DNA of 64,000 bases. Source: Actinomycetota bacterium. Its GTDB lineage: Bacteria > Actinomycetota > Nitriliruptoria > Nitriliruptorales > JAHWKO01. Made by a program: the position numbers and the translations under genes. Under the pieces are notes generated by a model. It was not told the DNA's origin, searched no databases, and worked only from the letters and a program-made list of their open reading frames with translations. The stretch spans positions 1-64,000 of the forward strand of contig JAHWKW010000013.1 of assembly GCA_019347675.1 (NCBI GenBank). Reading direction: 5' to 3'. Each line of letters starts with the position of its first letter. The stretch's first letter is position 1. Shown here piece after piece: positions 7,774-63,861 of the stretch.

Positions 7774-9891
7774 TCACGTGGAGGCGGGAGCCTCCTCCGT
7801 TGCTATCTCGGCCTGCTGGGGTTGCGGGTAGGTGATACGCGGGTGGTACACGCCGCAGAGTGTCTCGAGGAACGACGCCCTGACCGCAGCGACGTCCTGG
7901 AACGTCAGGGGGCTCTCGTCGAGCTGACCGTCTTCGATGCGGGCGGCGAATAGGCTGTCCACCAGCTCGGACAACTGGTCGCGCGACAGGTTGCGGTCAT
8001 TTTGGGCGGCGGCGCGGCTGGCCGCCTCGCAGCAGTCGGCGAGCATCAGCACCGCGGTCTCTTTGGTGGTCGGTTTGCGACCCTTGTAGCGGTACACCCC
8101 CTCGTCCACGTGCTGTCCCGGCGCGGCTTCACGTACGGCCTTGAGGTAGAAGTACGTGACGACCGTCGTGCCGTGGTGCGTCGCGATGCCCTGCACCACC
8201 TCCGGCGGGAGACGGTAGGACCGGGCCATCTTGATCCCGTCGGTGACGTGTTCCTGGATGATCGTGGCTGAGATGTCCGGTCCCAGGCCGTCGTGCGGGT
8301 TGGAGATCCCGAACTGGTTCTCGATGAAGAAATACGGTCTGCGTACCTTGCCGATGTCGTGGTACAGCGCCATAACGGACCCAAGCAGCGGGTCGGCGTT
8401 CACAGCCCGGCAACCACGCTCGACCAGCGTCGCGACGACGATCGAGTGGTTGTACGACCCGAGTGCCTTCTGTTCCAGCTCCCGTAGCAGCGGATGGTTC
8501 CGGTCGGCGAGGTCGATCAGGCCGGTGGCGGTGACCAAACCGAACGCCGACTCGATGAACGGCAGGCCGCCCACCACCAGGATCCCGCCGCTCACGCCGT
8601 GGATCGCTCCCGCTAGAGCGGGACGGAGCAAGCTGTCGGTGCCCTCGAAGGTGACCGCGAACGTCACCGCCAGCACGATGTAGCCACCCGTGGCGAACAG
8701 AGCCGCTCGGCGCAGGTCGCCGCGGACCGACAGGCGGGTGACCAGCGGGACGCTCAGCAGCGTCGCGGCCGCCGCGTACGCGACCACGCCTGTCGTTCCG
8801 GGGGCGACGTAGGCGGTGAGCAGGGTGACCGGCACGGCGAGCAGCACCCCGACCGGGGCGCCCAGCAGGATCGTGGCGAGCATCCCCAGCGCCCCGGACG
8901 GCACCGCGTACAACCACACCTCGGTGCGCTCGATCACCAGTGTCGCCCCGGCGAGGATCGCGGCGTAGCCGAACATCAGCGTCGCCAGCAACAGCAGCTT
9001 GCGGTTCGAGCGCCACACGGAACGTCGATGGGTGCGTAGGTACAGCGCCGAGACGGCGGCGGCGATTGCGGTGATGGCGAGCGCGCGGGCGACCTCCCAG
9101 CGTGGATCGGACCCCGCCAGCCCGACCCGTTCCAGGGCGGCCAGCTGAACGGGCGTGACCTCCTCCGCGGCGGAGACGATCACCGACCCGGTGGGGAAGG
9201 TCCGCATCGCCTCGTCGACGTTGGCGGCCGCGCGCCGCCGCGCCTCATCGGTGGCCTCGTGGTCGACCACGACAGTCGGACGCATCGCGCTGCGGATCAG
9301 CGGCTCCACGACCGCATCGGTGAGGTTCGTAGGGACGTCGCGCACGGTCGCCTCGACCCGCAGCTGCTCATCGAGGACATCGTCGACCTGCCCCGCCCGG
9401 ATCGATTGGCGGGTCAGTTGCTGCACGATGCTGATCGTCTCGCTCCGTAGGGAGTCGAAGGTGGGTGCGTCGATGGTGACCAGCAGACGCAGCCCGGTGT
9501 CGTCGAGCATCGCGAGCCGATCGCGGAGCGCGTCGACCCGCTCTTCGGTGGATGGCGGCTCGGCGCCTTCGGCGGTGGGTGCCTGCCGGATCTCTTGCAC
9601 CACGTCGAACTGGTTGCGGATGTCCTCGACCGTGGCGATACGCGCCTGGTCGTCACGCTGCATGATCGGCTCGACCGCCTCGGCCGCCTGGCGACGTGCC
9701 CGCTCTGTCGCTTCCTCGTCGACGATGCGGATGAGGTTGGGGGCGACGACCGTCCGCGGCGACGCCTCCCCGGCCCGGATCGGGGATTCGTCCAGGAACG
9801 CAGGGAGGCTGAGGGCGGCGGGGATGCCGATCAGCACCACCGCAGCGATGAGGAGTCGGTACGCGCGGTACCGCCTGACGAGTCGCTCCAC
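7774..9891 (-). CDS. 7TM-HD family phosphohydrolase (PgpH-like)
   Basis: A membrane HD-domain phosphohydrolase of 705 residues. The layout is one N-terminal membrane helix, a long extracellular 7TMR-HDED domain (about 30-270), about seven transmembrane helices (about 275-455) and a cytosolic HD domain. The HD residues are SYNHSIVVATLVERG and LYHDIGK (about residue 512), then THHGTT. PgpH relatives cleave c-di-AMP, so an osmotic/K+ signalling role is plausible given the antiporter and K+ channel elsewhere in the window, but this is inference. It starts at GTG and converges with the epimerase gene. Confidence 0.88.
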   Translation of the reverse strand: MERLVRRYRAYRLLIAAVVLIGIPAALSLPAFLDESPIRAGEASPRTVVAPNLIRIVDEEATERARRQAAEAVEPIMQRDDQARIATVEDIRNQFDVVQEIRQAPTAEGAEPPSTEERVDALRDRLAMLDDTGLRLLVTIDAPTFDSLRSETISIVQQLTRQSIRAGQVDDVLDEQLRVEATVRDVPTNLTDAVVEPLIRSAMRPTVVVDHEATDEARRRAAANVDEAMRTFPTGSVIVSAAEEVTPVQLAALERVGLAGSDPRWEVARALAITAIAAAVSALYLRTHRRSVWRSNRKLLLLATLMFGYAAILAGATLVIERTEVWLYAVPSGALGMLATILLGAPVGVLLAVPVTLLTAYVAPGTTGVVAYAAAATLLSVPLVTRLSVRGDLRRAALFATGGYIVLAVTFAVTFEGTDSLLRPALAGAIHGVSGGILVVGGLPFIESAFGLVTATGLIDLADRNHPLLRELEQKALGSYNHSIVVATLVERGCRAVNADPLLGSVMALYHDIGKVRRPYFFIENQFGISNPHDGLGPDISATIIQEHVTDGIKMARSYRLPPEVVQGIATHHGTTVVTYFYLKAVREAAPGQHVDEGVYRYKGRKPTTKETAVLMLADCCEAASRAAAQNDRNLSRDQLSELVDSLFAARIEDGQLDESPLTFQDVAAVRASFLETLCGVYHPRITYPQPQQAEIATEEAPAST

Positions 9892-9994
9892 CGTTCGGAG
9901 GCCTTCCGACGACGGACCGCAAACGACCGTACCCCGCGCAGGGCGCGAGACCAGCGGCCGACCGGACCGGAGACGCTATCGTACGGCACGGCGC

Positions 9995-30417: not shown

Positions 30418-32211
30418 GTGACCGAGCGTCACTCCGACCGCCATCCTGATGACGTCCGCCGCCGCGCCGAGCACCAGCCAGAGGTGTTCGTCGGCAGCAT
30501 CGACGATCACGACGAGCTGCAGGCTGAGCTGAAGTACCTGCGCGAAGAGGTGGAGCTGCTGCGGCGCCGCCTCGAGGCGAGCCCCAACCGCATCCGCCTC
30601 CTCGAGGAGCGGGTCCTGGAGACCAAGGGCCAGCTGCAGGGCGCCCTCAACCAGAACGCCAAGCTCGCCGAGACCCTCCGCGCCGCACGGGAGCAGCTGG
30701 CCACTCTCCGCGAGGAGGTCGAGCGCCTCTCCAGCGCCCCGCAGAGCTACGCGTCGTTCTTCCGGCCCTACGACGACGGGACGGCCGACGTCTCGTCGCA
30801 GGGCCGCAAGCTCCGGGTCAACGTCGGACCTGACGTGGACGTTGACGAGCTCAGCCCCGGTCAGGAGGTCCTGCTCAACGAGGCGCTGAACATCGTCGGT
30901 TCCAGCCGGTACGAGGATGCCGGCGAGGTGATGATCGTCACCGAGCTTCTGGGCAAGGGCCGTGCGCTGGTGATGGGCCGTGGCGACGAGGAGCTCGTGG
31001 TCCGCCTGGCCGACCCGCTCCTCGATCAGCCGCTCAAGGCTGGCGACTCGGTCCTGGTGGACTCCCGCGCCAACTACGCGTTGGAGATCGTGCCCAAGGC
31101 CGACGTCGAGCAGCTGGTGCTCGAAGAGGTCCCCGACATCACCTACGACCGGATCGGGGGCCTGGCCGAGCAGGTCGAACAGATCCGCGACGCCGTCGAA
31201 CTGCCGTACCTGCACGCGGACCTGTTCGCCGAACATGAGCTCAAGCCGCCCAAGGGCATCCTGCTGTACGGCCCGCCCGGATGCGGCAAGACGCTGATCG
31301 CCAAGGCGGTCGCCAACGCTCTCGCCAAGCGGGTGGCGGAGAAGACGGGGAAGTCCGACGCGCGGAGCTACTTCCTCAACGTCAAGGGCCCCGAGCTGCT
31401 CAACAAGTACGTCGGTGAGACCGAGCGGCAGATCCGACTAATCTTCCAGCGCGCTCGCGAGAAGTCCGCTGAGGGCTACCCGGTGATCGTGTTCTTCGAC
31501 GAGATGGACTCGCTGTTCCGCACCCGCGGGTCGGGTGTCTCCTCGGACGTGGAGAACACCATCGTCCCGCAGCTGCTTGCGGAGATCGACGGGGTGGAGT
31601 CGCTGAAGGACGTCGTCGTGATCGGCGCGTCCAACCGTGAGGACATGATCGACCCGGCGATTCTGCGCCCCGGCCGCCTCGACGTGAAGATCAAGATCGA
31701 ACGGCCAGACAAGGACGCCGCCCGCGAGATCTTCCGCATCTACCTCCACGCGGGGCTCCCGCTCGACCAGGCCGAGGTCGATGGCCACGGAGGCGATCGC
31801 GCCGCGGTGATCGAGGCGATGATCGACCGCACCGTGGAGAAGATGTACGCCGAGGACGAGGACAACCGCTTCCTGGAGGTGACCTACGCCAACGGGGAGA
31901 AGGAGATCCTGTACTTCAAGGACTTCAACTCCGGAGCGATGGTGCAGAACGTGGTCGACCGTGCCAAGAAGTATGCGATCAAGCGCTTGATCGCGTCCAC
32001 GGAACGTGGGTTGCGCACCGACGACCTGGTCCGGGCCATCCGCGACGAGTGGCGCGAGAACGAGGACCTGCCCAACACCACCAACCCGGACGACTGGGCG
32101 CGCATCTCGGGCAAGAAGGGCGAACGGATCGTCTACGTGCGCACGCTCGTGAGTGGTGCCGAGGACAGCGGGAAGGCGATCGAGAACGTCAACGCGGGCC
32201 AGTACCTGTAA
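30418..32211 (+). CDS. mpa: Proteasome-associated ATPase Mpa/ARC
   Basis: The AAA ring ATPase that recognises pupylated proteins, unfolds them and feeds them to the 20S core. The 597-residue protein has an N-terminal coiled coil (about 25-100) that binds Pup, tandem OB domains (about 105-240) and one AAA domain: Walker A GPPGCGKT (about 284), Walker [13 protein letters not shown] (about 355), and the [17 protein letters not shown] segment. It ends GQYL, the penultimate Tyr motif that docks on the alpha ring. The GTG start follows GGAGG. Its 3' end is partly duplicated just downstream. Confidence 0.96.
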
Positions 32212-32249
32212 GGGTCCCACCCGCGGCAAGTACCTGTAAGGGTCCCACC
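32201..32249 (+). repeat. Tandem duplication of the mpa 3' end (2 x 21 bases, period 28)
   Basis: The 21 bases at 32201-32221, which include the last two mpa codons (Tyr-Leu) and the TAA, are repeated exactly at 32229-32249. The period of 28 puts the second TAA in another frame. Confidence 0.9.
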
Positions 32250-32255
32250 GCCTCC

Positions 32256-32287
32256 GTGGCCCGTCTTGGCAAGCCCAAGACGGCCAC
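32256..32287 (+). terminator. Hairpin between mpa and dop
   Basis: A stem of about 12 pairs with a one-base bulge: GTGGC(C)CGTCTTGG pairs with CCAAGACGGCCAC around a short AAGC-type loop. No U-tract follows, so termination may be partial or the stem may protect the mpa mRNA end. Confidence 0.5.
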
Positions 32288-32392
32288 TCCGGTTTCACGC
32301 CCGGTCAGGCCCAGACACCTCGGTCAGCAGCCTTGGATCGCGTCCCGGCCTACCCTTAGCGACGACGGCCACGCACGACCGAAGGGTGTTCG

Positions 32393-33874
32393 GTGGTCCT
32401 TCCCAAGTACATCGGCACGGAGACCGAGTTCGGGATCACCGTGCAGGGTCAGCCCGACGTCAACCCGGTGCTCGCCTCGTCGCTGGTCGTGTCGTCCTAC
32501 CAGCCGACCGCCCGCCACCAGGTCAAGTGGGACCACTCGGAGGAGCACCCGCTCCGCGACGCGCGCGGCTACGAGGAACCGTCGTCGCAGGAGCCACCCA
32601 GCGACGAGGACCTGGGGCTGGCGAACACCGTGCTGACCAACGGGGCGCGCTTCTACGTCGATCACGCCCACCCAGAGTACTCCAGCCCCGAGTGCAGCAA
32701 CCCCCGCGACCTCGTGATCTGGGACAAGGCCGGGGAGCGCATCCTCGAGGTCGCCGCGCAGCACGCAGCGAACGCGCTCGCCGGCGGCCGAGTCCTGATC
32801 CACAAGAACAACACCGACGGCAAGGGCGCTGCCTACGGGACCCACGAGAACTACCTGGTCGACCGGGCCGTCCCGTTCCCCACACTGGTCAGACAGCTGA
32901 TCCCCGTCTTCGTGTCGCGCCTGCTGTACGTGGGGGCGGGGCGTATCGGGAACGAGTTCGACGACCCGGACGTGGACTACCAGCTGTCCCAGCGGGCCGA
33001 CTTCTTCGAGGTCGAGGTCGGGCTGGAGACGACGCTCAAGCGGCCGATCATCAACACCCGCGACGAGCCTCACGCCGATCCGGAGCGCTACCGACGTCTG
33101 CACGTCATCAACGGCGACGCCAACCTGTGTGAGGTCGCGACGTTCCTGAAGCTTGGGACCACCGCGATCATCCTGTCGATGATCGAGGATGGTGCGGCAC
33201 CCGACCCACCGGAGCTGGCGAAGCCGGTGGCTGCCTTCCACGCGATCAGCCATGACCTGACCGGCCGTGGGACCGTCATGCTCAAGGACGGGCGGCAGGT
33301 CACCGCTCTCGACCTGCAATGGCGGTACCTGGAGGCGGCCAAGCGGTACTGCAAGGACCTCGACCTCGACCCGGTCCACGCCGAGGTGCTGCAACGCTGG
33401 GAGTCGGTCCTGACCACGGCCGAGGAGGACCCGCGACGGCTAGCCGGTCAGGTCGACTGGGCAACGAAGCTGCAGCTGCTCGACCAGTACCGCCAGCGGC
33501 ACGGCCTGGATTGGCGCGACGACCGTATGAAGATGGTGGACCTGCAGTACCACGATGTTCGGCGGGACAAGGGCCTCTACCACCGCCTCGCGGAGCGCGG
33601 CAAGGTCGAACGGCTGGTCGCCGAGAGCGAGATCGAACGGGCGGTGTGGCACCCGCCGGCCGACACCCGCGCGTACTTCCGCGGCCGCTGCCTGGAGAAG
33701 TTCCGCAACCACATCGTCGCTGCCGGCTGGGACGCGCTGATCTTCGACGTGGGCCGTGACGCCCTGCAACGGGTGCCGATGATGGACCCGGGGAAGGGCA
33801 CCGCTGCCCACGTCGGCGACGTCCTGGACGCAGCTGAGACGGCCGAGGACCTGCTGGCGTCCCTGACCGGCTGA
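32393..33874 (+). CDS. dop: Pup deamidase/depupylase Dop
   Basis: Deamidates the C-terminal Gln of Pup to Glu so that it can be ligated, and removes Pup from targets. The 493-residue glutamine-synthetase-like enzyme begins PKYIGTETEFGI, with the metal-binding Glu. It has the Dop-specific loop around residues 60-75 and the catalytic Asp90 in ARFYVDHAHPEYSSPE. IHKNNTDGKG and [24 protein letters not shown] bind nucleotide and metal. The start is a GTG. It lies directly ahead of pup, whose product here ends in Gln and so needs Dop. Confidence 0.95.
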   Translation: MVLPKYIGTETEFGITVQGQPDVNPVLASSLVVSSYQPTARHQVKWDHSEEHPLRDARGYEEPSSQEPPSDEDLGLANTVLTNGARFYVDHAHPEYSSPECSNPRDLVIWDKAGERILEVAAQHAANALAGGRVLIHKNNTDGKGAAYGTHENYLVDRAVPFPTLVRQLIPVFVSRLLYVGAGRIGNEFDDPDVDYQLSQRADFFEVEVGLETTLKRPIINTRDEPHADPERYRRLHVINGDANLCEVATFLKLGTTAIILSMIEDGAAPDPPELAKPVAAFHAISHDLTGRGTVMLKDGRQVTALDLQWRYLEAAKRYCKDLDLDPVHAEVLQRWESVLTTAEEDPRRLAGQVDWATKLQLLDQYRQRHGLDWRDDRMKMVDLQYHDVRRDKGLYHRLAERGKVERLVAESEIERAVWHPPADTRAYFRGRCLEKFRNHIVAAGWDALIFDVGRDALQRVPMMDPGKGTAAHVGDVLDAAETAEDLLASLTG

Positions 33875-33882
33875 AGCGTGGG

Positions 33883-33888
33883 TACCCT
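33883..33888 (+). promoter_or_regulatory. -10 element for pup (TACCCT)
   Basis: TACCCT begins nine bases after the dop stop and 31 bases before the pup start, leaving room for a leader with AGGAGGG. Pup may therefore have its own strong promoter. No clear -35. Confidence 0.35.
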
Positions 33889-33913
33889 CCGCACGACGAC
33901 CAGGAGGGACAGC

Positions 33914-34108
33914 GTGAGCGACGGGGGACGTACCCAGAGGCGAGCCCGGACCCGGGAGGCCGACGACGAGCAGTCGACCCAGACGGCCGAGTCGACCTCC
34001 GAGGACGTGATCGAGGACGTCGACGAGCTCCTCGACGAGATCGACGAGGTCCTCGAGGAGAACGCCGAGGAGTTCGTCAAGAACTACGTCCAGAAGGGCG
34101 GCCAGTAG
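33914..34108 (+). CDS. pup: Prokaryotic ubiquitin-like protein Pup
   Basis: A 64-residue intrinsically disordered protein tag that PafA attaches to lysines to mark proteins for the proteasome. It has an Arg-rich then Asp/Glu-rich N-terminal part, the Mpa-binding helix segment VDELLDEIDEVLEENAEEF, and the conserved tail FVKNYVQKGGQ. It ends in Gln, so Dop must deamidate it. The GTG at 33914 is chosen for AGGAGGG five bases upstream; the frame opens earlier at 33878 but without a ribosome site. Confidence 0.96.
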   Translation: MSDGGRTQRRARTREADDEQSTQTAESTSEDVIEDVDELLDEIDEVLEENAEEFVKNYVQKGGQ

Positions 34109-34118
34109 CTCCGACTCG

Positions 34119-34144
34119 CCGTGACCGCGTCCCGGCGGTCACGG
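34119..34144 (+). terminator. Bidirectional hairpin after pup
   Basis: Perfect ten-base arms CCGTGACCGC and GCGGTCACGG enclose a GTCCCG loop. It lies ten bases after the pup stop and contains the stop codon of the convergent DMT transporter gene, so it can end both transcripts. Confidence 0.6.
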
Positions 34145-35128
34145 AGCAATGGCACCTGCAGCCACGTCGGTTGGCCGAGCGGTGCGGCGATGCGCCGTGA
34201 CAAAGACCGCAGGCGAGCGACGCCGCGGTGGCGCGGCATCCTCCGCGCCCACACGCTGGGCGAGCCAGATGCCGGGGACGGTGAGCAGCACCCCGACGAC
34301 GGCCTCCATCGCGACCTGCTCGCCGCGCGCGAACCAGCCCAACGCCAACCCGACGGCAGGGGAGAGGTAGCTCACCATGGCGGCGTTGCTGGCACCAACA
34401 CGCTGGATGAGCCGGTAGTAGAGGATGAATCCGCCGGAGGTGCTGACGCAGGCCAGCAGCAACCACGCGATCCACACGCTCGCCGGCGCCGCCAGCGACG
34501 GCTCCACCTCGATGCGGACCGCCAGCGGCAGCGCGACCACGGCCGCGGCGGTGAGTTGGCCGGCCACGCTCACAGCGGGGTCGAGCCGGTGGAGGTAGCG
34601 ACGGGTGTACACGCCGCCGGCGGAGAACAGGACGACGCTGGCCAGGATCATGGCGACGCTGCCGAGCCGGCCGGACGCCGTGGCCGAGCCCGAAACGACC
34701 AGCACGATGCCGGCGAACGCGAGCAGCATCCCGCCGGCGCGCCGGGCCGTCACCCGCTCCAAGCCGACGGCCGCGGCGATCGCGAGGGTCATGGCGGGCG
34801 TGGGCGCGCCGAGCAGGGTGGCCAGGCCCGAGGGGATCTCGTCGCCGGCGGCTGCGAGCAGCGTCCACGGCACCGCCATCGCGCCGGCTCCGACCACGGC
34901 CAGGTGCAGCCAGGTCCTCGGTGCGCGCGGCAGGCGCTCTCGGCGCAGCGCCACCACGATGGCGGCCACCGTCAGGCCGCCGAGCGCCCGGCCCGCGACC
35001 AGCCAGAGCGGCGCGACGTGGTCGACGACGACGCGCACGAACAGTGCAGAACAGCCCCAGATCGAGCCGAGCAGGAGCAGCAGCAGCCCGTCGGACAGCC
35101 GGAACGACGAGCGTGAGGCGGTGGGCAT
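34139..35128 (-). CDS. DMT-superfamily (EamA) transporter
   Basis: A 329-residue inner-membrane exporter with ten predicted helices in two EamA repeats (LLLLLLGSIWGCSALFVRVVV ... and SVAMILASVVLFSAGGVYTRRYL ...). Substrate cannot be told. The ATG at 35128 gives the family N terminus; the frame stays open to 35248. It sits on the minus strand inside the block that separates pup from prcB. The gene itself looks intact. Confidence 0.82.
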   Translation of the reverse strand: MPTASRSSFRLSDGLLLLLLGSIWGCSALFVRVVVDHVAPLWLVAGRALGGLTVAAIVVALRRERLPRAPRTWLHLAVVGAGAMAVPWTLLAAAGDEIPSGLATLLGAPTPAMTLAIAAAVGLERVTARRAGGMLLAFAGIVLVVSGSATASGRLGSVAMILASVVLFSAGGVYTRRYLHRLDPAVSVAGQLTAAAVVALPLAVRIEVEPSLAAPASVWIAWLLLACVSTSGGFILYYRLIQRVGASNAAMVSYLSPAVGLALGWFARGEQVAMEAVVGVLLTVPGIWLAQRVGAEDAAPPRRRSPAVFVTAHRRTARPTDVAAGAIAP

Positions 35129-35314
35129 GGCAAGAGGCCTGTCACGAGTACGCCTCAGGAATCGGCACGCCGGCGGCCGACTGTAGGGACCGGCCGCAAG
35201 CGGGCCCCCACGCGGAGACGCCAGGCCGGTGCTGAACGCCCCGAGCACGGCGGGCGACGCCGCGACCTCGGCGTCGAGGCTCGCCCAACCGCATGCCAGG
35301 GTCGTCGCCGCCGG

Positions 35315-35670
35315 TCAGGACGGCGACGTGAGCTCCGGGAACATCGGGAAACGCTTGAGGTTGCGGGTCCACAGGGCTGCGTCCAGGATCCCGCCGTGGC
35401 CGCGACGACGCAGTCGACCGGGTCGACGCCAGGGTGGACGGGAGGTAGCGGTTCGCCATCTGCCCGGCCTGTTCGGTGATGGTGTCATCCACGGGAATCC
35501 AGTCAGGACCTCCAGGAGCCGACGAGTCGCTGGTTCTTGGCCCGATCGCGTCCCGGGCGAGCACCTCCCCTTGGTGACGATTGAGGCCGCCAGTCGCTCC
35601 CCATCGTCCGCCGCCATCCTCAGCGCCTGCCGCGCGTCTGGATTGCCGCGCAGATGGTCGCCGCTGGTTG
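35315..35670 (-). pseudogene. Broken VapC/PIN-domain toxin
   Basis: Pieces of a VapC toxin occur in order on the minus strand but in different frames: DHLRGNPDARQALR (N-terminal, starting 'DHLRG'), LAASIVTK, SGQEPATRRLLEVL, WIPVDDTITEQAGQMANRYL, then ILDAALWTRNLKRFPMFPEL before the stop at 35315. In intact relatives these form one protein ending 'LWTxNxKHFPMF'. At least two frameshifts and loss of the first residues make it non-functional. No VapB antitoxin is left next to it. Confidence 0.75.
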
Positions 35671-35671
35671 A

Positions 35672-36217
35672 ACCGACCGGCAGACGCCCGGTGAATGGTT
35701 GGCTGACGACCCGGAAGCGGCCGAGTCGCTGATCGGCGCCACGGACAAGACCCCACGGGACACCGCGCTGTCGTACGTGGCCACCGCCCGGGTGGCGCTG
35801 CGGGCCTACGAGACCCCTGCAGCGGTGACGTCCACGACGTTGCTGCCCCAGGTCGATCGCGATGCGCTGCCCGACAGCTGCCGCCACGCCGAGGTCGCGC
35901 TGTCCGGCATCAGCGACCGGAGGATGCTCGAGTACCTGTCGGGGCTGCTCGGCGACGAACAGATCCGGCAACGGTCCACCTCGGGACGGGCCTCGCAGCT
36001 GTCGGAGTCCGAAACGTGGCGGCCGCTGGCCACGGTCGACGAGCTGCGGTGGCTCCCCCCGGACCGGGCCGTGCTCGTACACACATCGACTTGACCCGCC
36101 CGGATCCATCTGCGCCCCTACGACCGGCAGCGTCACTGGCGACACCTGGCCGACGGAATGGCAGCCGGCCGCGTCGTCCGACTGAAGCGCCGGCAAAAGA
36201 GTGCGGTCAGAGTTTGA
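35672..36217 (+). pseudogene. Remnant of a type IV coupling (VirD4/TraG-like) protein
   Basis: Residues DDPEAAESLIGATDKTPRDT, then ALSYVATARVALRAYETPA, match the middle of actinobacterial VirD4/TraM-recognition coupling proteins. After PDSC the frame jumps to VALSGISDRRMLEYLSGLLG and WRPLATVDELRWLPPDRAVLV, the C-terminal region. About 80 residues expected between the two (including the 'DEAANIAPLP' Walker B segment) are missing. A frameshift near 36093 moves the tail (RIHLRPYDRQRHWRHLADG) to another frame ending at 36217. So it has an internal deletion, a frameshift and no N terminus: debris of a conjugative element. Confidence 0.72.
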
Positions 36218-36399
36218 GCTGGCCGCGAATCGACAGGATGGCCAGGCCGAGGGGCACCGGGCCCACCCACATCCAGAAGGCGTTCCTATGGACCCTGACC
36301 GACGCCAGGCTCGACGGGGCGCAACCTGACCGGAGTCTCAACCGCGGACCTGACCGGCGTCGAGAAGCTCGAGCAACCTCACAGTAGATTCGGGTGGAT

Positions 36400-36890
36400 A
36401 TGAACCCCTTCTCGCACCCAGCCATAGCCGCAGCGATCGGCGAACTCGGCGGTGACCACGAGCCGGTCATCGCCGCTGACCGCGGTGATGCGATCGCGGT
36501 CGTCCTCGTGAACGACGACAACAAGCGCACCGTGATCGTCGAACGGGAAGGTGGCCAGTGGCCGCTCCCGAAGCTGGTTGGCGGTATCGGACGGCGCGTT
36601 GCGGTCAGACAGCCGACCACGGTCCCCCATGAACCCTCCGGTGAGCTCACCTGGAAGGCTTCAGGCCGGACACGCGCCGACGGCAGTCCGCCAGAGGTGG
36701 TGTGGTGGGCGCTCAGCGGGACGCCGCGGAAGATGTCGATGCCGTCCACGTCGAGTCGGCGCGAGATCAGGTAAAGGTGGAGGTGCGCGAGGACGGCTGG
36801 TTCCTGGCGCTGCTGCGGGGACCTCGACGTTGTCAGGCAACGGTCAAGGTGCAAAGCCATGACGGCACGTGGCGACCCATCAGCCTGTAG
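36400..36890 (+). pseudogene. Frameshifted hypothetical gene
   Basis: Frame 1 from the ATG at 36400 reads NPFSHPAIAAAIGELGG, IVEREGGQWPLPKLVGG and PPEVVWWALSGT. Near 36716-36722 the sensible reading moves by one base to AAEDVDAVHVESARDQVKVE, VREDGWFLALLRG and DGTWRPISL, ending at 36890. Together these make one globular protein of about 163 residues. No family was recognised. Either the gene is broken by one indel or the base call is wrong. A TAGATT hexamer at 36384-36389 could be its promoter. Confidence 0.5.
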
Positions 36891-37077
36891 GTGTCGGGTT
36901 GCTTCGCCGCCGTCCAGACGTTCCGATCCTCTTCGGGGCCCACACCGCCGAGCGGGCCGATCGCAGGAGGGCAGCGAACCGTGAGCGGTCGCCTGCTGAG
37001 GTCGCGAACTCGCCGAGTCACTCCGCGTCGCGCGACACACCGTTCACGGTGGCGCGACCACCCTGCGCGCGGTGGCT

Positions 37078-38298
37078 TTACCGGCGCCGGTCCCGTCGGC
37101 GCAGGGTGAGCACCAACACCGCCAAGCCGACTGCGCCCGCCCCCCCGGCGCTGACCGCGATCAGCGGCCGCCCCGCCGATGCGGTCGGCTGCGATGTGGT
37201 GGCTGGTGGCTGCACAGCGTCGTCGTCACGGGCTGGCTGGTCCGGGACGGCCGGTGAGTCGCCAGGAGGGTCGACCGCGTCCGGGCGCGGCGGGGCCAGC
37301 ATCGCCACCATGATCCCCATCACGTCCTGCCAGGTGCGGCTGCTGTCGTAGACCGCGGTCAGGCGGAGCACATCGCCCGACTCCACCGGGACGCCGTCGG
37401 GATCCGCGAACGTCGTCATGCCCGTCAGCTGCCACGGTGGGCCGGGCGTGCTGTGGATCGCGTCGGACGTGAACAGCTGCGCCGCGGCCGTGGCGTTGTC
37501 CAGCCGCAGCTGCAGCCCGCCGTCGTGCAGGTGACCGCCAGCGAACACGAACCGACCGCTGATCGGCATCTGGTAGGTCCAGACCTCCTCGTGCACCCCG
37601 CCCCCGCCGCTGCCAGCCTCGACGGTGAACACGGGGTGGGCGCTGCAGTTGCGCACGTCGAGCCACACGGGCCGGACGGGAACGATGTCGTCTGCGGCGT
37701 CGACCTCGGCGACGTAGCCGAGGTCGAGCTGGATGAACGCCTCCGGGTGACCGGCCAAGCCGTCGAGCATCGCGACGAGCACCCAGCCGGGCACGTCGGT
37801 GTCTGCCTGCTGCGCCGGGCTGACCCAGTGGTAGCCGTACCCGTCGGGGAGGGCAGCCTCGGTGCGCTCGCTTCCCGTGGCGAAGAAACGTTCGTAGTTG
37901 GGCGCGGTCCCTCCGTAGGTCTCGCAGGTGAGGTCGCCCCGGTGGGAGTTGAGCCAGACCGCGTGGTGCAGGTGCACCGCGTGGTGGTGCACTTCTCGAC
38001 CCTCGGCGTCGACCAACGTCGCGCGAGCCGAGGTGACGTACCCGGCTTCGGGCGGGGCGGCCACGCCGCTGAGCAGGTCGACGCGTTCGCCAGACGGCAC
38101 CGGGATCGGCCCGGCCACGCAGCGGTACCCGTCAGCGGTCGCATCGCACCACGACGGCACGTCCCCCGATCGGGCGACCGCTTCCGCTCGCGGAGCGCCC
38201 GCAGCCACGAGGAGCGTCGCCGCTGCGGCGACCGCGGCGATCCGGGCGACGATCGACCGCCGTCGGATCGGGCCGACGGCTGCACGCGGCCGCTGCAT
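37078..38298 (-). CDS. Exported, membrane-anchored SURNod19-like protein
   Basis: A 406-residue surface protein. The N terminus (RRRSIVARIAAVAAAATLLVAAGAPRAEA) is a signal peptide. The body resembles the 'stress up-regulated Nod19' family, related to copper monooxygenase folds: VHHHAVHLHHAVWLNS is His-rich and GGHLHDGG is a second His pair, as expected for metal binding. A Pro/Asp/Thr linker follows and a C-terminal helix with RRRDRRR anchors it to the membrane. The ATG at 38298 is preferred over a GTG at 38364, since it puts the signal peptide first. It lies upstream of prcB, divergent from it. Confidence 0.65.
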   Translation of the reverse strand: MQRPRAAVGPIRRRSIVARIAAVAAAATLLVAAGAPRAEAVARSGDVPSWCDATADGYRCVAGPIPVPSGERVDLLSGVAAPPEAGYVTSARATLVDAEGREVHHHAVHLHHAVWLNSHRGDLTCETYGGTAPNYERFFATGSERTEAALPDGYGYHWVSPAQQADTDVPGWVLVAMLDGLAGHPEAFIQLDLGYVAEVDAADDIVPVRPVWLDVRNCSAHPVFTVEAGSGGGGVHEEVWTYQMPISGRFVFAGGHLHDGGLQLRLDNATAAAQLFTSDAIHSTPGPPWQLTGMTTFADPDGVPVESGDVLRLTAVYDSSRTWQDVMGIMVAMLAPPRPDAVDPPGDSPAVPDQPARDDDAVQPPATTSQPTASAGRPLIAVSAGGAGAVGLAVLVLTLRRRDRRR

Positions 38299-38380
38299 CG
38301 CCAGGGTCCGTCCATCACACGGCGGCCCGTCGCGAGCCGGTTCGGCCGGATCGTAGAGCAGCACGCCTGACCCGGTGTCC

Positions 38381-38386
38381 TACTAT
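38381..38386 (+). promoter_or_regulatory. -10 element for the prcB operon (TACTAT)
   Basis: TACTAT lies 39 bases before the small upstream ORF and 83 bases before the prcB start. It is in the divergent gap beside the SURNod19-like gene. No good -35. Confidence 0.4.
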
Positions 38387-38424
38387 CCATAGCGCTGCAG
38401 CGGCCCGACGACGTAGGAGTGGCG

Positions 38425-38472
38425 ATGCGAAGGAGCGTCCCGACGCATCCGACCACGGTGGTTCGCCGTTGA
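38425..38472 (+). CDS. 15-codon upstream ORF overlapping the prcB start
   Basis: ATG at 38425 with TAGGAG five bases upstream encodes MRRSVPTHPTTVVRR. Its TGA (38470-38472) overlaps the TTG start of prcB (38469-38471). Since prcB has a weak start and no ribosome site of its own, translation of prcB is probably coupled to this leader. Confidence 0.5.
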   Translation: MRRSVPTHPTTVVRR

Positions 38473-39341
38473 CGCCCGACCAACCACGCGCCGGCCTGTG
38501 GGGCGAGCTCCGGCTGCCGACGCCGTTCGACCCCGACGGGTCGTCGTTCTTCGAGGTGATGCGGCGGCGGGCGCCCGACGCGATGCCCGGGATGCTGCGT
38601 GGTTCCGACAGCGGGGACGCACGCGACGTACTCGGCGAGCTCACCGCCGAAGGCACAACCGTCCTGGCGTTGACCTACCGCGACGGCGTCGTGGTGGCCG
38701 GCGACCGTCGCGCCACCGCCGGGCATCTGATCTCCAAGAAGGACGTGCGCAAGGTCTTCCCCGCCGACCGGTTGAGCGCCATCGCGATCAGCGGGGCGGC
38801 GGGCTTCGCAATGGAGCTCGCCAAGGTCTTCGCCACCGAGCTCGAGCACTACGAGAAGGTCGAGGGAGACACGCTGTCGCTGGAAGGCAAGGCCAACCGG
38901 CTGGCGCACATGGTCCGCGCCCATCTCCCGTTCGCGATGCAGGGCCTGGTGGTGGTCCCGCTGTTCGCCGGAGTGGAGGCGGCGGACACCCACGGTCGGA
39001 TCTTCGAGTACGACCCGGTCGGGGGCCGCTACCTGTCGGCCGACTACGCCGCCACGGGATCAGGTGGGCGCGACGCCCGTGGGGCCCTGAAACGTGACCA
39101 CGATCCTGACGCGCCGCAGGAGCACGCTGTCCGCTTGGCGGTCAGCGCCCTGTTCGACGCCGCGGAGGAGGACAGCGCCACCGGCGGGCCCGACCTGATC
39201 CGGCGCATCTACCCGATCGTGGCCGTGATCGACGGTGACGGGTACCGGGAGATGAGCGAGGAGTCGGTCGGCCAGCACGTCGAGGACGTGGTCGCGTCGC
39301 GCGAGGAACGCACGATCGCGGACATACCGCCGCAGCGGTGA
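38469..39341 (+). CDS. prcB: Proteasome beta subunit PrcB
   Basis: Catalytic subunit of the 20S proteasome. The 290-residue precursor has a 62-residue propeptide removed at ELTAEG/TTVLAL, exposing Thr63 as nucleophile. The catalytic Asp is in GVVVAGDRRATAG and the Lys in ISKKDVRKVFPADR. GSGG with the downstream Asp completes the active site. TTG 38469 is the first possible start in frame and overlaps the leader ORF stop. The gene starts the second half of the split proteasome locus. Confidence 0.93.
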   Translation: MTPDQPRAGLWGELRLPTPFDPDGSSFFEVMRRRAPDAMPGMLRGSDSGDARDVLGELTAEGTTVLALTYRDGVVVAGDRRATAGHLISKKDVRKVFPADRLSAIAISGAAGFAMELAKVFATELEHYEKVEGDTLSLEGKANRLAHMVRAHLPFAMQGLVVVPLFAGVEAADTHGRIFEYDPVGGRYLSADYAATGSGGRDARGALKRDHDPDAPQEHAVRLAVSALFDAAEEDSATGGPDLIRRIYPIVAVIDGDGYREMSEESVGQHVEDVVASREERTIADIPPQR

Positions 39342-39372: not shown

Positions 39373-40053
39373 GTGGCGATGCCCTTCTACGTCTCGCCCG
39401 AGCAGATGATGAAGGACCGGGCCGAGTACGCCCGCAAGGGCATCGCCCGGGGGCGGGCACTGGTGGCCATGGAGTACGACGACGGCGTGGTGTTCGTCAG
39501 CGAGAACCCGTCGCGGTCGCTGTACAAGACCTCGGAGATCTACGACCGGATCGCGTTCGCGGCGGTCGGAAAGTACAACGAGTTCGAGGCGCTGCGGGTC
39601 TCGGGCATCCGCCTCGCCGACGCCAAGGGGTACCAGTACGGCCGGGAGGACGTCACCGTCAAGTCGCTGGCCAACGCCTACAGCCAGGCGCTCGGTGCGA
39701 TCTTCATGGGGGAGGGCAAGCCCTTCGAGGTGGAGATGCTGATCGCCGAGGTCAGCGGCGAGGACGGGGCGGAGCTGTACCACATCCTCTACGACGGGTC
39801 GATCGTCGACGAACACCGCTACGTGGCGATCGGCGGGGAGTCCGAGGAGCTGGCCCGCGCCCTGGAGTCCCGCTACCGGGACGGCTCGTCACTCGACGAC
39901 GCCGTCCGGCTGGCCGTGTCGGTCCTCGGACCCGACCGCGAGATCGCGCCCGGCGACCTGGAGGTGTCGGGGCTGTCGCGTGAGCGTGAGCGGCGCAAGT
40001 TCTTCCGGCTCGACGACCAGGACATCGCCAGGATCCACAGCGAGGGGGCGTGA
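39373..40053 (+). CDS. prcA: Proteasome alpha subunit PrcA
   Basis: Forms the outer rings that gate the 20S core and dock Mpa. The 226-residue protein begins MPFYVSPEQMMKDRAEYARKGIARGRALVA, the N-terminal gating helix of actinobacterial alpha subunits, and lacks a propeptide and catalytic Thr. GGGAG precedes the GTG start. It begins 31 bases after prcB, and its stop overlaps the start of the next gene by four bases. Confidence 0.95.
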   Translation: MAMPFYVSPEQMMKDRAEYARKGIARGRALVAMEYDDGVVFVSENPSRSLYKTSEIYDRIAFAAVGKYNEFEALRVSGIRLADAKGYQYGREDVTVKSLANAYSQALGAIFMGEGKPFEVEMLIAEVSGEDGAELYHILYDGSIVDEHRYVAIGGESEELARALESRYRDGSSLDDAVRLAVSVLGPDREIAPGDLEVSGLSRERERRKFFRLDDQDIARIHSEGA

Positions 40054-41357
40054 CCGTCACCGACCGCTGGTCGCTGCACGCCAGCTTGATCGCCGTGGCC
40101 GCCGTCGTGATCGGCGTCACCGCGGGAGCCGTGGCGGTGGAGCGTTCTCGGGTGCTGGCTCCCGACCGCCCCGCCACGGCCCCGTCCACACCGGCCCCAG
40201 CCGGCACCTTCGATCGCCTCGACGGGCAGCTGCAGCGGGTGGCACGCATCGTGTCGGAGGTCCGCGGGCTGGACTTCGAACAGGTCCCGCGACCGACCTA
40301 CCTCACACCCGACCAGCTCGCGGCGCGCGCACGGGCGCTGGTCGACGAGTACACGGAGGAGGAAGCCGAGGCCGACCGGCGGATCCTGGTCGCTTTGAGG
40401 GCGATCCCGCCGGGGACGGACCTGCGTGAGATGCTCGCGACCGCCCTCGGGGAGCAGGTGGCGGGCTTCTACGACAAGCGCACCCGCGACCTGGTCGTCC
40501 GGGCCGGCCACGGGGAGCAGCTCGGTCCGCTGGACGAGGTCACCCTGGCCCACGAGCTCGAGCACGCCCTGGTCGACCAGGTCCTGGGGCTGCCGTTCTC
40601 CGACCGTGATCCGGGCCCCGGCGAGGAGGACGCGGCCTTCGCGGCCAGCGCGCTGGTGGAGGGCGACGCCACCCTGACCATGATCCGGTACGCCGAGCGT
40701 GCACTGACGCCCGAGCAGCACGTGGAGCTGCTGGCCGAACAGGCACGGCTCGCCGCCGAGATCGGCGACCTGACCGACCTTCCCCACATCGTGCAACGGT
40801 CGCTGTCGTTCCCGTACGAGGAGGGGCTCGCGTTCGTCGTGCACCTGTGGGACATCGACGGGTTCGCGGCCGTGAACGGCGCGTACCGTCGCCTGCCCAC
40901 CACCACGTTGCAGATCCTGGTCCCCGAGCGCTACGTCGGCCAAGAGGGCGACGCGGCCGATCCCCGCGACGTCGCGGACCTGCCCGCGCCGTGGACCCGC
41001 CACACGTCGCTGGCCGTCGGTGCCGCGGATCTGCTGTTCCTGTTCGAGGCACCCGGGGACGACCCGACGCAGGCGCTGGACGACCCGCGCGGCGCAGCGA
41101 CCCGGTGGCGGGGCGGTGAGGTGGTCTTGTTCTCCGACGGCGACCGCAGCGCGGTCGCGATGGCACTGGAGGGCGAGACCGGGCTGTGCGCCGCGGTTGG
41201 CGAGTGGTACGCGGCGGCGTTCGGACCCGGCCGCGGCAGCCAGGCCCGGATGGAGTTCGAGGCCCCCACCCAGGATGCGGTGGTGACCTGCGAGGGGCCG
41301 GAGGTGCGGCTGGGGATCGGTCCCGACCTCGCCACGGCCGCTGCGCTCGCCGCCTGA
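40050..41357 (+). CDS. Membrane-anchored HExxH (gluzincin-like) protein in the proteasome operon
   Basis: A 435-residue protein with one N-terminal membrane helix (LIAVAAVVIGVTAGAVAV), so its bulk is outside the membrane. An HExxH zinc motif lies at about 167-171 in TLAHELEHALVDQ. SALVEGDATLTMIRY, about 40 residues later, offers the third (Glu) ligand. This is a gluzincin-type metallopeptidase layout, though activity is inferred. Similar proteins are known to me only as uncharacterised. The GTG start overlaps prcA's stop (GTGA) and pafA follows 63 bases later, so it is an integral member of this operon. Confidence 0.7.
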   Translation: MTVTDRWSLHASLIAVAAVVIGVTAGAVAVERSRVLAPDRPATAPSTPAPAGTFDRLDGQLQRVARIVSEVRGLDFEQVPRPTYLTPDQLAARARALVDEYTEEEAEADRRILVALRAIPPGTDLREMLATALGEQVAGFYDKRTRDLVVRAGHGEQLGPLDEVTLAHELEHALVDQVLGLPFSDRDPGPGEEDAAFAASALVEGDATLTMIRYAERALTPEQHVELLAEQARLAAEIGDLTDLPHIVQRSLSFPYEEGLAFVVHLWDIDGFAAVNGAYRRLPTTTLQILVPERYVGQEGDAADPRDVADLPAPWTRHTSLAVGAADLLFLFEAPGDDPTQALDDPRGAATRWRGGEVVLFSDGDRSAVAMALEGETGLCAAVGEWYAAAFGPGRGSQARMEFEAPTQDAVVTCEGPEVRLGIGPDLATAAALAA

Positions 41358-41386: not shown

Positions 41387-41392
41387 TACCAT
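41387..41392 (+). promoter_or_regulatory. -10 element for pafA (TACCAT)
   Basis: TACCAT overlaps an in-frame ATG at 41391, making that ATG an unlikely start and pointing to the ATG at 41421. The spacing leaves a short leader containing GAGGAA. Confidence 0.35.
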
Positions 41393-41420
41393 GGCGTCCG
41401 ACGAGCTCGCGAGGAACCGG

Positions 41421-42773
41421 ATGCGGCGCAGGATCTTCGGCATCGAGAACGAGTACGGCGTCACGTGCACGTTCCGTGGCCAGCGCCGTCTGAGTCCAGA
41501 CGAGGTCGCCCGCTACCTGTTCCGCCGCGTGGTCTCCTGGGGCCGCTCCAGCAACGTCTTCCTGGAGAACGGCGCACGTCTGTACCTCGACGTGGGCAGC
41601 CACCCGGAATACGCCACGCCCGAGTGCGACTCGCCGCGGCAGGTGGTGATCCACGACAAAGCCGGGGAGCGGATCCTGGAGGACCTCGTGCACGCCGCGG
41701 AGCAGCGGCTGCACGAGGAGGGCATCGCCGGCGACATCTCGTTGTTCAAGAACAACACCGATTCGGCGGGGAACTCGTACGGCTGCCACGAGAACTACCT
41801 GGTCACGCGGGTCGGCGAGTTCCAGCGCCTGGCGGACGCGCTGATCCCCTTCCTGGTGACCCGCCAGATCTTCACCGGTGCGGGGAAGGTCTTGCACACC
41901 CCCCGGGGGGCGGTCTTCAGCCTGTCGCAGCGCGCGGAGCACATCTGGGAGGGGGTGTCGTCGGCGACCACCCGGTCACGGCCGATCATCAACACCCGTG
42001 ACGAGCCGCACGCCGACGCGGAGCGCTACCGCCGGTTGCACGTGATCGTGGGCGACTCGAACATGAGCGAGTACGCCGCCTGGCTGAAGGTCGCCACCAC
42101 GGACCTGGTGCTGCGCATGCTCGAAGAGCAGTCGATCATGCGCGATCTCACGCTGGAGAACCCGATCCGGTCGATCCGGGAGGTCAGCCACGACCTGACC
42201 GGACGGCGGCGACTCCGGCTGGCCACGGGGCGCGAGCTGAGTGCGCTCGAGATCCAGCAGGCTTACCTGGAGCGGGTCGAGCGGTTCGCCGCGGCGACCG
42301 ACATGGACCCCGACGCCAAGGAAGCCCTCGACCAGTGGCGCTACATCGTCGAGACCATCGCCGAGGATCCGTTCCGCCTGCACAGGGAGCTGGATTGGGT
42401 CGCCAAGTACCGCCTGATCGAGCGTTTCCGCACCCGTCACGGCCTACCGCTGTCCCACCCCCGGGTCGCCATGGTCGACCTCGCGTACCACAACGTCGCC
42501 CGTGACCGGGGCCTGTTCCACGTTCTGCAGCGTCGCGGGGAGCTGCAGCGGCTGTTCGACACCGAAATCGACGAGGCCAAGTTCGAGCCGCCGCCCCACA
42601 CGCGGGCGGCGCTCCGCGGCCGCTTCATCCGTCAGGCCAAGGCCCGCCGCCGCGACTACACGGTGGACTGGGTCCACCTCAAGCTCAACGACCAGGCCCA
42701 GCGCACCGTCCTGTGCAAGGACCCCTTCCGCTGGCAGGACGAGCGCGTCGAGAAGCTGATCGCGTCGATGTAG
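41421..42773 (+). CDS. pafA: Pup-protein ligase PafA
   Basis: Ligates deamidated Pup to target lysines, using ATP. The 450-residue enzyme is the glutamine-synthetase-like partner of Dop. It begins [15 protein letters not shown] (Glu9, metal site) and has [19 protein letters not shown] with catalytic Asp57. It continues with [19 protein letters not shown] and [22 protein letters not shown]. The C-terminal domain ends [23 protein letters not shown] 41421 with GAGGA fits the usual PafA N terminus; ATG 41391 is rejected. Confidence 0.95.
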
Positions 42774-63788: not shown

Positions 63789-63861
63789 GCCCCCATCGTC
63801 CAGCGGTCCAGGATCCCACCCTTTCAAGGTGGTGACACGGGTTCGAATCCCGTTGGGGGTA
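63789..63861 (+). tRNA. tRNA-Glu (anticodon TTC)
   Basis: A full cloverleaf of 73 bases. The acceptor arm is GCCCCCA with TGGGGGT (a G-T pair at the end). The anticodon arm is CCACC, loop CTTTCAA (TTC), GGTGG. The T-arm is ACGGG TTCGAAT CCCGT. The sequence matches actinobacterial tRNA-Glu, including the GTCCAGCGG D-arm region. Confidence 0.96.

Follow-up and report, generated by a model that had tools for sequence, protein, structure and literature searches.

We describe a Pup-proteasome locus of the order Nitriliruptorales in which a stretch of unrelated genes, some of them relics of mobile-element genes, comes between pup and prcB. Roughly half of the genomes of the class Nitriliruptoria in which this junction could be measured have it open, with a -10-like element before prcB when the two genes are split and rarely when they are adjacent. 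In our reading, the pup-prcB junction is probably a permissive break point in this class, one that opens and is refilled while pup and prcBA are served by separate promoters. The common picture has pup and prcBA next to each other, forming a single unit. The split and adjacent genomes form a natural series that bears on whether production of Pup has to keep pace with that of the proteasome core, and the same series bears on how an operon breaks without loss of function. The titles and opening parts of abstracts, and the passages of PMC8223512, PMC6466877 and PMC2920845 that were consulted, hold no description of a split between pup and prcB.

Architecture of the locus and contents of the block

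The window, the whole 64,000-nucleotide stretch of DNA that was analysed, comes from contig 13 of a draft genome of 3.49 Mb in 76 contigs. All six Pup-proteasome genes (ARC, dop, pup, prcB, prcA, and pafA) are present and open in it (Table 1), in the order and orientation usual for described loci of this kind. According to passages of PMC8223512 and PMC6466877, Pup-proteasome genes are encoded in close proximity, and proteasomal subunits have been lost in some groups (passages of PMC8223512). In the window, ARC, dop, and pup stand in a row (30418-34108), with prcB, prcA, a 435-aa ORF, and pafA downstream of the gap. Here pup does not immediately precede prcB, as 4,360 bases lie between the pup stop at 34108 and the TTG start of prcB at 38469. 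Three features set the window apart from the usual locus: the 4.4-kb run of unrelated genes that divides pup from prcB, a candidate promoter before prcB, and the 435-aa ORF between prcA and pafA. The start of pup is likely the GTG at 33914, ahead of which an AGGAGGG site can be read in the sequence; the mechanical ORF start is 33878. The TTG of prcB is followed by the codons ACG CCC GAC, and prcB of G018 and G014 begins alike. The 435-aa ORF (40050-41357, +) has no Pfam match; a homologue with 50% identity is found at the same place in G020.

Table 1. Genes, relics, and sequence signals of the split Pup-proteasome locus in the window
Feature	Position	Strand	Evidence or remark
ARC/Mpa proteasomal ATPase	30418-32211	+	as query, found upstream of dop in relatives
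Dop (depupylase)	32393-33874	+	
TACCCT, -10-like element of pup	33883-33888	+	
pup	33914-34108	+	PF05639 E 1.3e-20, match 33923-34105
Hairpin after pup, between convergent pup and EamA	34108-34147	+	fold z -3.2
EamA-family transporter	34139-35248	-	single open frame, PF00892 E 4.2e-35
VapC (PIN) toxin relic, three frames	35318-35660 (about)	-	alignment to homologues
Coupling-protein (TraG/TraD C-terminal) relic	35672-36199	+	TraG-D_C E 9.3e-5, just over cut-off
Hypothetical gene, one frameshift	36394-36866	+	G029 homologue
SURNod19-like gene	37078-38364	-	single open frame, PF07712 E 1.4e-6
TACTAT, candidate -10 of prcBA	38381-38386	+	83-88 bases upstream of start
prcB, proteasome beta subunit	38469-39341	+	TIGR03690 E 2.8e-89
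prcA, proteasome alpha subunit	39373-40053	+	
pafA, Pup ligase	41391-42773	+	

A preliminary description of this DNA had reported that pup and prcB are split by a block with dead mobile-element genes, and had listed the block gene by gene as EamA, VapC, coupling protein, hypothetical gene, and SURNod19-like gene. Both statements proved right, the gap being as measured above with the relics inside it. Its view of the block as decayed applies to the middle 1.6 kb (about 35318-36866) but not to the EamA and SURNod19-like genes, both of which are open. At E<=1e-40, 28 of 40 relatives have EamA homologues (36-43% identical), which lie at other loci; for the SURNod19-like gene, a threshold of E<=1e-10 gives homologues in 2 of the 65 other genomes of the class.

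The VapC relic shows homology to open VapC proteins across most of its length. Homologues up to 70% identical are present, at E<=0.01, in 16 of the 65 other genomes of the class, and most of them lack internal stops; the N-terminus of the relic was not found. The Pfam PIN model is weak on the joined pieces (E 0.21) and, when run across the window's own genome, gave no match at the relic, which a read-through search did match; this miss is probably due to the shortness of the pieces. The coupling-protein relic carries an internal deletion, an in-frame nonsense codon, and a frameshift. A second copy in the same genome (C21:233-550), 83% identical and itself a fragment, keeps a stretch that is lost from the window copy and contains what we take to be a Walker-B-like motif, and the homologue in G049 is an open frame of 668 aa. 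The C21 fragment (L178, G000:C21, 247-780, -) adjoins a 614-aa ORF (898-2742, -), and an ORF that reads as TadA/CpaF-like is also nearby. The frameshifted hypothetical gene is matched in two frames by a 167-aa open frame of G029, and the frames 36388-36774 and 36645-36890 gave insignificant Pfam matches only. Among the block frames scanned with Pfam there was no integrase, relaxase, or transposase, and the only conjugation-type gene among them is the C-terminal relic of the coupling protein.

Attachment repeats, which the preliminary description had proposed to look for at the borders, did not come to light: a search for direct repeats across 33850-38700 gave no convincing pair, and the true borders are uncertain. 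Nor is there a tRNA at the borders, the only one found in the window being at 63789. These results give no support to the arrival of a mobile element in one piece between pup and prcB; such an element may have entered an interval opened earlier.

Frequency and contents of the open junction among relatives

Pup and PrcB were searched in 66 class genomes, and the gap was measured where both genes lay on one fetched stretch. It exceeds 500 bases in 18 of the 37 class genomes with both genes on one contig: 13 of the 17 measured genomes of the order and 5 of the 20 from the rest of the class. In Salsipaludibacter albus (L052) the two genes are adjacent. The assemblies of many relatives are fragmented; when 11 genomes in which the contig end sets a lower bound above 500 bases are added, the order stands at 24 split out of 28. 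This count assumes that prcB lies further on; three of the 11 (G021, G024, and G030) gave no PrcB match at all, and G014 gave no Pup match at all. The order's other 8 of 36 genomes comprise four of genus g3, with a Pup match and no PrcB match, and four that are uninformative.

Gaps of this size were found at none of 46 prcB-prcA junctions, 1 of 30 ARC-dop, 8 of 46 dop-pup, and 7 of 35 prcA-pafA junctions measured, and the comparison of pup-prcB with these gives Fisher p values of 0.014 to 2e-8 when relatedness is ignored. The prcA-pafA count is too low because pafA falls outside the fetched stretch in 11 further genomes, and this junction may be nearly as variable as pup-prcB. Outside the class, the census covered the best 80 of more than 500 loci by PrcB similarity. 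The outgroup consists of 66 loci (L055-L120) grouped by title alone, the titles naming no Nitriliruptor- or Euzebya-group organism; pup is in the stretch in 54 of the 66, and the gap to prcB is at most 106 bases in 52 of these 54 and more than 500 bases in 2. At one of these 2, L059, two Endonuclease VII-family ORFs (9153-9578 and 9669-9968) lie between pup and prcB; at another locus, L072, the gap is 857 bases, similar in length to that of L059.

The preliminary description implied a split peculiar to the window genome and caused by one decayed element, a view that finds no support in an order that is split in 13 of 17 measured genomes, with other contents in relatives. On the proteasome-gene tree, which carries no support values, G020 is the sampled genome closest to the window's; it is split as well, and its interval, which does not match the block genes, holds a glyoxalase-like gene and, by reading of the sequence, a HAD-like phosphatase gene. 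Block DNA matched none of the relatives' intervals longer than 200 bases at E 1e-3, and among the proteins of 83 interval ORFs (L121-L160) only the window's own three matched the block at E 1e-5. The same block in intact form was seen in none of the sampled genomes, which include none from the window's own family.

A TRAP cluster, made up of a TAXI-type binding protein, DUF1850, DctM, and Usp, or parts of these, is common to seven genomes. At L129, L132, L135, L155, L157, and L147 the cluster ends in a universal stress protein (Usp) gene directly before prcB. Where the contig reaches prcB (five of these loci), Usp ends 46-109 bases before that gene, on the same strand; the contig of L155 ends first. 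Histidine kinases are found in the intervals of three of four g2 genomes and of G030. A Pfam comparison of 77 interval ORFs of relatives, which covered part of the ORFs and in one batch 25 of 31 families, had no integrase, transposase, or relaxase among the matches listed. The junction resembles insertion hotspots and variable intervals in that the same conserved flanks enclose different contents in related genomes, with passengers and decayed mobile genes among them; it differs from insertion hotspots in having neither a tRNA nor attachment repeats here, and the families listed for the relatives' intervals include no integrase.

Candidate promoter and terminator signals

The usual form of the -10 element in actinobacteria is TANNNT. 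In a 105-base stretch upstream of pup, taken as a positive control, every one of the 44 genomes tested has it, whether split (25) or adjacent (19); upstream of prcA, the negative control, it is present in 0 of 26 split and 1 of 19 adjacent genomes. By a motif test devised after the upstream sequences had been read, and applied to genomes that are not independent and to extrapolated gene starts, 22 of 26 split genomes have TANNNT in the 80 bases ahead of prcB, versus 2 of 19 adjacent genomes, namely G017 and G040; dinucleotide shuffles give 3.5 (maximum 9) and 1.9, respectively. Within 110 bases the counts are 24 of 26 versus 2 of 19; the TACTAT of the window falls outside the shorter test stretch and inside the longer one. 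At dop the motif is present in 9 of 15 adjacent versus 4 of 17 split genomes, and at pafA in 9 of 14 versus 5 of 20. Upstream of outgroup prcB genes it occurs in 2 of 2 split loci, within the shuffle range, and in 4 of 52 adjacent ones.

Three regulatory proposals had accompanied the preliminary description. A promoter of its own for prcBA finds support in the -10-like TACTAT ahead of prcB, but no -35 element is evident there and a sigma-70 consensus scan of 34000-38600 found no promoter; the -10-like element is compatible with transcription apart from pup. The proposed uncoupling of Pup from the core particle draws support, at the sequence level, from the -10-like elements in split genomes. 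That pup ends at its own hairpin agrees with the predicted fold behind the gene, whose z of -3.2 becomes -1.6 in a 70-base stretch with simpler shuffles, but the hairpin has no T tract. The terminator signal after pup showed no clear difference between split and adjacent genomes (median z -0.4 versus 0.1).

We infer a mechanism in which ARC-dop-pup and prcB-prcA are mostly kept as two units, between which foreign or relocated genes would accumulate, decay, and be replaced. The window interval would then consist of two open passengers (EamA and SURNod19-like) flanking the wreckage of conjugation and toxin-antitoxin genes. Pup would be transcribed from its own promoter up to the hairpin that faces the convergent EamA gene, and prcBA would have its own promoter in the gap of about 100 bases held in common with the divergent SURNod19-like gene. 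More tentatively, prcBA may have gained a promoter in the Nitriliruptorales such that the supply of Pup and of the core could be set separately, with the freed junction serving as a lasting docking site for other genes, among them, in some members of the order, the TRAP-transporter/universal-stress cluster.

History of the junction

Insertion of a single mobile element between adjacent pup and prcB in the lineage of the window, followed by decay, would account for coupling-protein and VapC relics with several lesions, and for the similar coupling-protein fragment on another contig of this genome. We consider it unlikely in an order that is mostly split, including G020 with other genes, and for a block with no convincing border repeats, no nearby tRNA, no integrase, relaxase, or transposase among the frames scanned, and outer genes that are open. 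That a misjoined contig and indel errors mimicking frameshifts produced the arrangement is very improbable: the genome is a 76-contig draft, but the proteasome genes of the window are open along their whole length, the lesions cluster within 1.6 kb, with a deletion and a nonsense codon among them, and relatives are split at the same place. The passengers might also be functional partners, with prcBA co-transcribed with upstream stress or transport genes, as the same-strand Usp gene shortly before prcB in five genomes could suggest. This too seems quite unlikely, given that the adjoining gene in the window is divergent, that contents vary, and that a -10-like element lies between Usp and prcB in those same five genomes.

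A 47-tip tree of proteasome proteins, built from the locus's own proteins, requires at least 8 state changes, compared with a mean of 14.9 and a minimum of 9 for shuffled labels; without any closures, 11 separate openings (all-split clades) are needed on it. In the adjacent genome G017 (gap of 112 bases) there is a TACGCT element resembling the one in G018, its split sister, and the TRAP cluster before prcB in G018, G007, and the g13 genomes diverges roughly as PrcB does; together these suggest an old opening with later turnover. We see about an even chance that the ancestor of most of the order was already open, its contents being replaced since and the junction occasionally re-closed by deletion, as opposed to numerous independent insertions at an intact junction. 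Against such an ancestor stand the 11 all-split clades if closure never occurs, as well as G006 and G015, which are adjacent (-13 and -16 bases, from extrapolated starts) with no element within 110 bases. A further point against it comes from one genus elsewhere in the class, in which the gaps of G059, G060, and G062 are 54, 68, and 1 base and that of G061 is 14,233 bases, which suggests at least one insertion into a closed junction in the class outside the order.

Variation at the same place is also known in the Corynebacterium glutamicum type, in which prcBA has been lost; the window differs from it in keeping prcBA. C. glutamicum, used as a control, gave a Pup match and no PrcB match. Pup without a PrcB match is likewise found in all four genomes of genus g3 (G002/L158, G004/L159, G009/L160, and G019; 1.1-1.7 Mb). 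In the three that were fetched, ARC, dop, pup, and pafA stand in a row without prcBA, with 6-26 bases between pup and pafA, and by their gene content the g3 genomes may carry out pupylation without a proteasome core.
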